Source: Methanolobus sp.
GTDB lineage: Archaea > Halobacteriota > Methanosarcinia > Methanosarcinales > Methanosarcinaceae
Length of the DNA stretch: 64,000 bases
Direction: 5' to 3'
Assembly: GCA_029762595.1 (NCBI GenBank)
Contig: JARVGJ010000006.1
Location: 47,897 to 111,896 of the forward strand
The notes below the pieces were generated by a model. That model ran no database searches. It worked only from the letters and a program-made list of their open reading frames with translations, and was not told the DNA's origin. Positions 6,401 through 60,769 of the stretch are shown here, one piece after another. How positions within the stretch are numbered: position 1 is the first letter of the stretch; each line of letters opens with the position of its first letter. The translations under genes and the position numbers were made by a program.

Positions 6401-8422
6401 ATGGAAGCTTTAATTTATCTTGCCCCTCTTGCCGGTCTTATTAGTTTGATATTTGCCGGCTTCTTTGCACGCAGTGTTCTTAAAGAGGATGCAGGTTCTG
6501 CAAAGATGCAGGAAATAGCAGGTGCCATCCAGGAGGGTGCGATGGCATATTTGAATCGCCAGTATAAAACAATCGCTGTAGTAGCTGTGATCCTTGCTGC
6601 TCTGATCTTTGTCCTTCTTGCAGATGGTGGGAAGATAGCGTTCGGATTCCTTGTTGGTGCAATCAGTTCCGCAGCAGCAGGATACATTGGTATGAACGTG
6701 TCAGTCCGGGCAAACGTCAGAACTGCCAGTGCAGCATCAAAAGGCTTGCAAAAAGCAATGTCAGTTGCTTTCCGTGGTGGTGCTGTAACAGGTCTTGCTG
6801 TGGTTGGTCTTGCCCTGCTTGGTACAAGTGGTTTCTACATAGTTTACGGTGATGTGGACCTTGTAATAGGATTTGCTTTCGGTGCCAGTCTTATAAGTCT
6901 TTTTGCAAGGGTTGGCGGTGGTATTTTCACCAAGGCTGCAGATGTGGGAGCAGATCTTGTAGGTAAGATCGAAGCCGGGATTCCGGAGGATGACCCACGC
7001 AATGCAGGTGTGATTGCCGACAACGTGGGTGACAATGTGGGTGACTGTGCCGGTATGGGTGCTGATCTGTTTGAAACATATGTAGTAACCGTTCTTGCGT
7101 CTATGCTTCTTGGTTCACTTATCCTTGATACGTACGCCAATGCAATTCTTTATCCGCTCATCCTTGGTTCAGTAGCGATTTTCGCTTCTATCATTTCCGT
7201 ATTCTTTGTGAAGGTCGGTAGTGATGGAAAGATAATGAAGGCTTTGTATAAGGGTGTAGCAGTGTCTGCAATCCTTTGTCTTATCGCTTTCTACTTCGTT
7301 ACAACTTCCCTTATGGGGGACATCAGATTCTACTATGCAGCTTTAGTAGGTGTTGCCATCATGGTTCTGATGGTGGTTTTCACGGAATATTACACTTCCA
7401 CATCTTTCCGTCCGGTGAAGACAATAGCAGCAGCATCTGAAACAGGTGCAGGTACCAACGTTATTTCAGGTCTTGCAATCGGTTTTGAGAGTACCGCACT
7501 TCCTGTAATCGTTATTATTGCAGGTATTCTGTCATCCTACTTCATTGTAGGTGGTGCGGCAGCCCCTGCGATTGGTCTTTATGGTATTGCAATTGCAGCA
7601 GCTGCAATGCTCTCGACTACCGGAATGATCGTAGCACTTGATTCATACGGTCCTATAACTGATAATGCAGGTGGCATTGCAGAAATGGCAGGAATGCCAT
7701 CCGAAGTACGTAAGATCACCGATGCACTGGATGCTGTAGGTAATACTACAAAGGCTGTTACAAAGGGATATGCAATAGGTTCTGCAGCTCTTGGTGCACT
7801 GGCCCTGTTCGCAGATTACAGGCACAAGGTAAGTCCGGAGGGAACTACGCTTAACCTTAGCCTTGATGATCCTGTGGTCCTTGTGGGACTGTTTATCGGA
7901 GGACTTCTTCCTTTTGTATTCAGTGCTGTGACAATGAGGGCTGTAGGTAAGGCGGCTTTTGAGATAGTCAATGAGGTTCGCCGTCAGTTCCGTGAGATTC
8001 CCGGTATCATGGAGGGGACCACAAAGCCTGAATATGGGAAATGTGTTGACATCGTAACTGCAGCAGCAATTCGTGAAATGGCCATACCTGGTGCCCTTGC
8101 TATCTTCGTACCTCTCCTTGTAGGACTGGTGCTTGGACCTGAAGCTCTTGGTGGTCTGCTTATCGGTATCATTATCTGTGGTCTCTTGCTTGCGCTCACA
8201 ATGGACAACGGTGGCGGTGCATGGGACAATGCAAAGAAGCTCATAGAAGATGGTAAATATGGTGGAAAAGGCTCCGAGGCCCACAAGGCAGCTATCGTCG
8301 GTGACACTGTAGGTGACCCTTTCAAGGACACATCAGGACCTGCTCTGAATGCCCTGATAAAAGTTGTGAACATGGTTGCTATCCTGTTCTCTTCACTATT
8401 TATCGGTGCAGGTATCTTCTAA
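6401..8422 (+). CDS. hppA: membrane-bound ion-translocating pyrophosphatase
   Basis: 673 aa; [56 protein letters not shown] and [20 protein letters not shown] signatures. Confidence 0.98.
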
Positions 8423-8618: not shown

Positions 8619-8798
8619 TTATTTCTTTCCAAGGAAATAGTAAGCTATAGCCCCAAGAACACCAAAAATGATTGCAATAATTATCCAGAGAGCTTTCTTT
8701 ATTGGTTCAAGTCCTTTGTTCCGAACCATCACATCATATATAACCCAGACAACAGATACCAGGGTTATCAATCCCCATATGTTGTATGCCATAGACAT
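8619..8798 (-). CDS. small membrane protein, PLDc_N-like
   Basis: Not in the ORF track (59 aa). Manual translation MSMAYNIWGLITLVSVVWVIYDVMVRNKGLEPIKKALWIIIAIIFGVLGAIAYYFLGKK*, GGTG upstream of the start. Confidence 0.8.
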   Translation of the reverse strand: MSMAYNIWGLITLVSVVWVIYDVMVRNKGLEPIKKALWIIIAIIFGVLGAIAYYFLGKK

Positions 8799-8924
8799 AA
8801 TTTACACCTCAAAAAAGATAGCTTGCAGCACCTATATATGTTTATCTGAATTTTTCACCATTAATAGCATTGTCTTTTCCCAGGCTATATAACTTGACTA
8901 ATATTATCTAATGATTCAACTTTT

Positions 8925-9080
8925 AAAAAAGCCCTGAATTTAAAACAGAACATAAGGATAAATTCTCCCGGATCTAAGAACAAAACATATTTCGCACGGG
9001 TGGTTTGGTTTATATATTTGGGGAGTGGGGTTTAAGTGTGGGAGTGGGTTTTGTGTATGAAATGAGCCACCCGTGCAAAA
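8925..9080 (-). ncRNA. candidate structured small RNA A (C-rich loop)
   Basis: Intergenic. Minus-strand TATAAATA at 9111-9104, 10-bp perfect stem GCACGGGTGG/CCACCCGTGC (9076-9067 / 9003-8994) around a loop with CCCACTCCC...CCCCACTCCCC, GGGAG downstream, 7-bp hairpin GAATTTA/TAAATTC, poly-T6. Confidence 0.5.
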
Positions 9081-9239
9081 ACAAACCCTAAATGTAATCA
9101 TGGTATTTATACTTTCCTATTTTGGATTGCGCATTGACATATATATCTTATTCTTCACTAATTCATATTCATATAATGCCATTGTGGGATGCAAATAAAT
9201 ATGAGTGATACATAGAATGGCAATATCGTCGGAGTTATT

Positions 9240-10151
9240 TTGATGGTTGAAGAGATTGGAACAGTTATTCGTAAAGGTTTTGGAACCTGGACAAGGAATC
9301 TTAACATATGTTTACCTTTTATACTTGAGGTTGTAACAGCTATGTTGTTCTTTGTACTTGCGATGTTGATATTCACTGCTTTATTCATTGTTCCAATCGT
9401 TTCGCAACAAAACATAGATCCTGCAAATATTACTCCTGATCAAATGCTTGGCATATTCATTTCCGTTTTTTCGGAAAGCATGTGGCTTATCATTATTGTA
9501 GGGCTCATCCTCCTTCTACTTTACATGTTGTTCCAGTCCTTCTTTGCAGCAGGAGCTATAAGAATGGCAAGTGAAGCTTCAGAAAAAGGAAACACTGGCC
9601 TTGGTGATATGTTCCGGGGCGGAAAGGAGAATTTCATTAATCTTTTCCTTACAAACATACTCGTTTTATTGCTTGCAGTTGCAGGCCTGGTGTTCCTGGT
9701 CCCTGGCATAATTTCGATAGGTGATCTGGATCTTTTCCTTTCAAATCCGCAGAGTTCGGTTGCAGGTGCATCTTTGCTAATTGCAGGCCTGCTTTTATGG
9801 GTGTTATATATCTTTGCTCTGAGCATCATCTTTCTGCTTGTGGACTATGCTCTTGTGATCGATAGGCTGGATCCGATCACAGCAATAGAAAAGGGTATTA
9901 ATGTTTTCAGACAGAATATGTTCCCTGTCTTTATTATGTGGGTTCTGGTAATAGGTATTAGTTTTATGCTTAGGCTTTTAGGGGAAGCAACATCCTATCT
10001 GGATATGATTGCTCAGCTCTGGTCTTTTGCGGAATTCATTCTCAATATAATTGTTATACAGCCTCTGATAACCGTGTGGCTGACGCGTTTCTACCTTAAC
10101 AGGGAAGACCGGAAGCTCTACTCCTTTGATGATTATATGCTGGATTACTGA
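9240..10151 (+). CDS. multi-pass membrane protein (DUF7847 / GDPD-membrane-domain-like)
   Basis: 303 aa, about 6 TM segments; MVEEIGTVIRKGFGTWTRNLNICLPFIL typical start; the ATG at 9240 is followed by a second ATG at 9243. Confidence 0.7.
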   Translation: MMVEEIGTVIRKGFGTWTRNLNICLPFILEVVTAMLFFVLAMLIFTALFIVPIVSQQNIDPANITPDQMLGIFISVFSESMWLIIIVGLILLLLYMLFQSFFAAGAIRMASEASEKGNTGLGDMFRGGKENFINLFLTNILVLLLAVAGLVFLVPGIISIGDLDLFLSNPQSSVAGASLLIAGLLLWVLYIFALSIIFLLVDYALVIDRLDPITAIEKGINVFRQNMFPVFIMWVLVIGISFMLRLLGEATSYLDMIAQLWSFAEFILNIIVIQPLITVWLTRFYLNREDRKLYSFDDYMLDY

Positions 10152-60318: not shown

Positions 60319-60573
60319 TCATACCACCTTATTATATTTATATGAGCTACGGTAATTTGTGGCTATGTTTCGAATATATTTAAAGTTCTTGTATATACAG
60401 TATTACTTGGAAATGACAGTTTACTATCATTAGAACACGAGTATTTCTTGGGGATAAATGCAATCGTAGCACTGAAGGTAGGCGATTAGAATATTATAAA
60501 GAATATAATGTTTTTATTATTTGATTACATCTATAGCGAAGTGTTTATATGTTAACGGCTTTAACTATGTTTA

Positions 60574-60769
60574 GGTGAGGTGTGCGGTCTAATTTTACCA
60601 CCCCCCAACCCCCACTTATTCCTTCCGCACACCTCTTATATGTATTTGATATGGGGGAAACGGCATAGTCTGGTATTTGTGTTATACTAGGCTGTGAAAA
60701 AAAGATCAGGTTCACCAGGAGAAATTAGGAGTATATCGTAGAACGCATTAGTAGAACCTGTTTTTTTTT
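60574..60769 (+). ncRNA. candidate structured small RNA B (C-rich loop)
   Basis: TATA-like TTTATATG 60544-60551; perfect 11-bp stem GAGGTGTGCGG/CCGCACACCTC (60577-60587/60625-60635); GGGGG at 60653-60657; 13-bp hairpin 60664-60676/60684-60696; 7-bp stem 60707-60713/60754-60760 followed by T9. Confidence 0.6.

Follow-up and report, generated by a model that had tools for sequence, protein, structure and literature searches.

The minus strand between hppA and the DUF7847 gene raises the question of whether a TATA box, a perfect stem and a C-rich loop found there in succession mark a small RNA (sRNA) gene, and whether such a gene belongs to a family. The first-pass annotation of the window, i.e. 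the whole 64-kb stretch of DNA that was analysed, had proposed this because a second locus near position 60574 has the same layout and a different primary sequence. The elements listed there for the first locus are all present, letter for letter and in place. Based on the comparative evidence given below, 8991-9079 (-) is very probably a real, independently transcribed member of an sRNA family, with expression predicted from sequence features. The locus and its surroundings comprise the following features:

9104..9111 (-): TATA box (box A) TATAAATA, 32 nt 5' of where the model match starts
8991..9079 (-): predicted sRNA core, a hairpin with a C-rich loop, matched by the covariance models R1, R2 and R3
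9067..9076 (-): 5' arm GCACGGGTGG, whose pairs covary
8994..9003 (-): 3' arm CCACCCGTGC, read from the sequence
9004..9066 (-): single-stranded loop of 63 nt, 97% mean column identity in 16 Methanolobus loci
9040..9048 (-): loop motif copy 1, CCCACTCCC, read from the sequence
9020..9030 (-): loop motif copy 2, CCCCACTCCCC, the class-wide motif (11-mer)
8926..8993 (-): tail containing U-runs (TTTTGTTCTT; GGGCTTTTTT), perhaps where the RNA ends; its sequence drifts
6401..8422 (+): hppA, membrane pyrophosphatase, conserved neighbour in Methanolobus and Methanosarcina
9240..10151 (+): DUF7847 gene, conserved divergent neighbour in Methanolobus
8619..8798 (-): ORF of 59 aa with a PLDc_N domain, downstream on the sRNA strand

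The perfect 10-bp stem (9076-9067 with 9003-8994) encloses a 63-nt loop containing CCCACUCCC and CCCCACUCCCC, the latter at 9030-9020, and the core 8991-9079 (-) has no ATG. Further along the minus strand, GGGAG lies at 8969-8965 and GGGCTTTTTT near 8935-8926. No other perfect 10-bp GC-rich stem with a loop of 45-80 nt occurs in the 64-kb window; block shuffles (n=40) contained a mean of 0.2 such stems, though the maximum was 6. The folding energy of the locus is unremarkable (z -1.70). Since plain folding energy is not special here, the case for the locus rests on comparative evidence.

Within the genus, the element is found at the same place between hppA and the DUF7847 gene in about 20 Methanolobus genomes, and BLASTN detected the element or the loop motif in congeners and in none of the genomes outside the genus. 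Across 16 aligned Methanolobus loci, conservation covers the TATA box, stem and loop, and all sequence beyond GCAAA drifts; mean identity is 0.97 for the loop, 0.93 and 0.97 for the two arms and 0.62 downstream. The tail features on which the first-pass annotation had built part of its argument do not share this conservation. GGGAG, which was thought to pair with CUCCC in the loop, is not conserved in the 15 aligned orthologues, and this pairing has a probability of 0 in the fold ensemble, so that a 'compensated' loop-tail pairing was rejected as a family trait. Likewise, the terminal GAATTTA hairpin is not kept among the 15 aligned orthologues, and the GGGC-U6 tail is not retained in the aligned Methanolobus orthologues.

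The taxonomic range was assessed with the covariance model R2, built from 37 sequences, which scores 90.3 bits at 8991-9079 (-), the window sequence being among its training rows. R2 matches 101 of the 112 genomes of the family Methanosarcinaceae, usually one to five times per genome, and 84 of the 86 near-complete ones. At the level of the class (Methanosarcinia), 128 of 151 near-complete genomes in the sample are matched. Each of the five families sampled from the order has matches, with 1-8 copies, and one further family of the class scores more weakly (E about 3e-4 to 5e-3). In the phylum sample, the matches listed all lie inside the class, and about 160 other genomes had none. The groups named in the records are Methanolobus, Methanosarcina, Methanomethylovorans and Methanococcoides; the labels ANME-type and Methanothrix-type are our own inferences. 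Judged by these model matches, almost all Methanosarcinia archaea that make or consume methane carry the predicted family, the methane oxidisers being assigned by taxonomy.

Covariation and promoter position support a transcribed hairpin. In the alignment of 82 class-wide matches, which was fitted to the model and therefore favours structure, 12 of 12 stem pairs carry changes on both sides, 97.2% of the cells are paired compared to 81.1% in shuffles, and the covariation score is 0.378 compared to 0.124, a value reached by 0 of 500 shuffles; slid controls stay under 0.08. The signal points the same way but is weaker in an unfitted MAFFT alignment of the 16 Methanolobus loci (double changes at two pairs, 98.8% paired, score 0.114 versus 0.091). 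Without further guidance, RNAalifold recovers the same single hairpin and predicts nothing inside the loop. A strict box A lies 26-40 nt ahead of the stem in 34 of 78 loci versus 27 of 915 control windows (Fisher p about 4e-25, for loci that are not independent), and the box A at 9111-9104, 32 nt upstream, falls inside this range. Runs of T5 within 45 nt downstream are modestly enriched (30/78 loci, 165/924 controls). A chance frequency of such arrangements, the outcome that had been named as speaking against a family, can be excluded because phylum-mates outside the class have no matches, the stem covaries and the TATA box is enriched.

The same loop motif recurs in other stems elsewhere (types B, E and others), and the loop is retained by copies whose stems differ so greatly as to be unrelated. 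In the window genome, the 11-mer CCCCACTCCCC or its complement occurs at three family loci only; type B has a GTGAGCGGGT stem (C15:28321-28382), and type E, with ATGAGCGGGT (C58:59449-59503), has a single motif copy. Among 79 class-wide members, 65 carry CCCCACTCCCC and 77 a run of T4 or longer in the loop region. Types A-C have two motif copies per loop, Methanosarcina copies have more C-tracts, and some members (type E, Methanothrix-like) have one copy only. In other species, type C stands at the hppA/DUF7847 position where type A is found and is its orthologue, not the paralogue it first looked. The Methanosarcina copies also adjoin hppA, and type E is flanked by rfcL on one side and AsnC/top6B on the other (rfcL-sRNA-AsnC-top6B) in Methanolobus and two further genera. 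This synteny across genera indicates that at least two family loci are old and syntenic.

Tandem pairs of sRNA genes, each with its own TATA boxes, were observed at L254, L255, L262, L282, L278 and L279, most of them spaced by 120-210 nt and those at L278/L279 by about 280-670 nt. Divergent Methanosarcina-type copies with the stem GGGCATCCGG/CCGGGTGCCC were seen at L323 (G036:C1:2616339-2617554). As these were caught by the loop motif and are absent from the listed model matches, the family is probably larger than counted.

The second locus of the window has the following features:

60544..60551 (+): TATA box TTTATATG
60551-60565 (+): imperfect palindrome GTTAACGGCTTTAAC after the TATA box
60577..60635 (+): stem GAGGTGTGCGG/CCGCACACCTC with a C-rich loop, R3 22.4 bits, E 0.013

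The model R3 was trained class-wide with the 60574 locus left out and with 8991-9079 as a training sequence. With E values up to 5, it finds exactly two matches in the window, 8991-9079 (-) with 72.2 bits (E 5.7e-14) and 60579-60633 (+). These are the two loci that the first-pass annotation had combined into a structured family; the grouping of the two is supported, with the second as a distant and borderline partner. Two further copies of the second locus occur in its own genome and one in another Methanolobus; this relative in the other species reaches 29.9 bits with R3 (E 2.6e-4) and carries CCCACTCCC. The 60574 locus is likely a distant, borderline family member by these scores, and convergence is possible.

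A palindrome resembling GTTAAC-N3-GTTAAC follows the TATA box in the 60574-family copies (window 60551-60565, L179-L182) and is a possible repressor site. A separate repeat of about 300 nt, with the stems GGGTGGTG/CACCACCC and TATAAGGCT/AGCCTTATA, has three copies in the genome, around position 1501 of L042, L047 and L054 (C9:43708, C11:146551 and C22:32229), two of which lie 1-3 kb from 60574-family copies. Another repeat, with GAATTCCCACTCCCCAAACCGCATA, is found at three places in the window genome (L036, L038, L039) and resembles a mobile element's coding end.

The best full explanation, which we consider fairly likely on balance, is a family of TATA-driven hairpin sRNAs whose C-rich loop acts in trans. 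Each gene would have its own TATA box, with transcription starting a few bases before the GC-rich stem and presumably ending soon after it, at U-runs. The stem would be a holder, free to change its sequence, that displays a single-stranded loop of 25-65 nt with a U-tract and at least one motif (ACACUAA)CCCCCACUCCCC. The family is probably a regulator with this loop as its working part; a trans-acting RNA agrees with the conserved loop, the holder-like stem, the separate promoters and the multiple copies. Most likely it would act after transcription: the C-rich motif would pair with short G-rich stretches in several mRNAs and alter their translation or stability, perhaps with SmAP/Lsm as a putative partner on the U-tract.

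That the family acts by base pairing is the more tentative part of this explanation and is given slightly less than even weight. In the window genome, no perfect complement of the 11-mer motif was found outside family loci. Pairing with 16S rRNA was rejected because 30 of 60 shuffled loops pair as well; the 16S gene is absent from the window's own assembly. The first-pass annotation had suggested checking the C-rich loop for pairing with 5'UTRs. At 46 start sites, pairing with ribosome binding sites (RBS) is at the level of shuffled loops, 70 of 100 being as good, and a generic anti-Shine-Dalgarno action was rejected accordingly. Sites with GGGGAGTG before ATG number 57 compared to 29 in the reversed control, counts that include general G-richness before ATG; three of the 57 fall inside a family locus, and among the sites read no gene recurs between species as a shared mRNA. 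In the ACDS operon, one cistron start is in the top 0.7-4% of windows and the others are not, a mixed result, and the operon was not kept as a likely target. In addition, the near-invariance of the 63-nt loop exceeds the needs of a short seed and counts against pairing.

Because the 16S, RBS and shared-target tests were negative, a protein partner stays a serious rival, although we regard it as rather unlikely overall. Here, the repeated C-rich loop motif would titrate a conserved C-rich-RNA-binding protein, or be stabilised by it, in the manner of CsrB/RsmZ. Such a role would suit the repeated motif copies in one loop, the several genes per genome, the class-wide conservation of the loop including its A/U spacers, the interchangeable stems and the missing pairing partner in the 11-mer complement, 16S and RBS tests. 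It is weakened by those members that have one motif copy (type E, Methanothrix-like), and no protein candidate is known. In its full form, with several independently controlled hairpin RNAs that offer a conserved protein one shared C-rich loop in methanogens and ANME across the class, this reading is slightly less probable still.

In the window, the 59-aa PLDc_N ORF follows about 190 nt downstream of the element in the same orientation, and the element could instead be a cis-acting leader or terminator of a neighbouring gene rather than a free sRNA. This is very improbable. A TATA-like box (TATATA near 8833) and an RBS (GAGGTG ahead of the ATG) precede the ORF, which suggests a promoter of its own. 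Moreover, the downstream sequence is unconserved, the neighbours vary between family loci while the RNA stays the same, and tandem copies each have their own promoters. Least probable of all is a DNA element (a regulatory inverted repeat, a G-quadruplex/i-motif or a mobile repeat). The four G-tracts on the plus strand of the loop could form a G-quadruplex, but the TATA box keeps a fixed distance on the C strand, the stem covaries, class-wide members exist with only two long loop G-tracts, and inheritance is syntenic, not scattered. Matches of the DNA pattern in bacteria (cyanobacteria, Treponema) were discarded since the four cases inspected look like tandem CCACTCCC repeats without the hairpin.

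The putative trans-acting sRNA family is absent from Rfam 15, where no family reached E 0.5 for the sRNA at the Methanolobus, Methanosarcina, ANME-type and Methanothrix-type loci searched; in the window, tRNA alone reaches the gathering threshold. Two other matches were noted in related genomes. In a Methanosarcinaceae genome of 2,138,444 bp in one contig (G031), a strong M-box magnesium riboswitch match on an archaeal chromosome (L271:2838-3001 (-), 122.7 bits, E 1.7e-27) runs off the end of the stretch, and a HEARO RNA match (L294:170-409 (-), genome G036, 106.2 bits) lies near a Methanosarcina-type sRNA locus. In the literature searched, which covered sources other than the transcriptome tables of M. 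mazei and M. psychrophilus, no description of a class-wide family was found. The family appears to be previously uncatalogued, given the lack of an Rfam 15 match, and single members may be contained in the M. mazei and M. psychrophilus transcriptome lists (PMC5378194). Its class-wide range, near-invariant loop and absence from Rfam recommend it strongly as a candidate core regulator at the post-transcriptional level, in a class that contains methylotrophic as well as aceticlastic methanogens and, going by taxonomy, also anaerobic oxidisers of methane. To our knowledge, few archaeal sRNAs have been characterised, and most of these are confined to one genus. Members of the present family occur in the genetically tractable Methanosarcina.

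Among known systems, Firmicutes sRNAs of the RsaE/IsrR type have C-rich single-stranded hairpin loops whose motifs match the Shine-Dalgarno sequence. The present family resembles them in its C-rich loops, whereas its RBS complementarity is not above that of shuffled loops. Of what might mark a CsrB-like protein sponge, the repeated loop motif is what the sequence shows. Genome G026, presumably that of Methanolobus psychrophilus R15, has three R2 matches compared to nine conserved R15 sRNAs. For this strain, 195 mapped intergenic sRNA starts are reported, nine of them conserved and cold-induced (PMC5378194). For M. mazei sRNA162, sRNA154 and sRNA41, action by pairing is reported (PMC5867862, PMC3510493). 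Of these, sRNA41 (Buddeweg et al. 2018, via PMC5867862) is reported to be intergenic and to cover the ribosome binding sites of polycistronic mRNAs. The present family is likewise intergenic and occurs in the same archaeal family, one member adjoining hppA in Methanosarcina; of the ACDS ribosome binding sites, one alone pairs well with its loop. M. mazei sRNA162 and sRNA171 are independently transcribed from a duplicated locus and pair through a single-stranded region, and sRNA162 is 191 nt long, has three stem-loops and a variable 39-nt linker, and is restricted to Methanosarcina (PMC3510493). In contrast, the present family has one conserved hairpin, is most conserved in its loop and is class-wide. 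As with sRNA162/sRNA171 (PMC3510493), its genes are duplicated and predicted to be independently transcribed, and its candidate pairing part is single-stranded.
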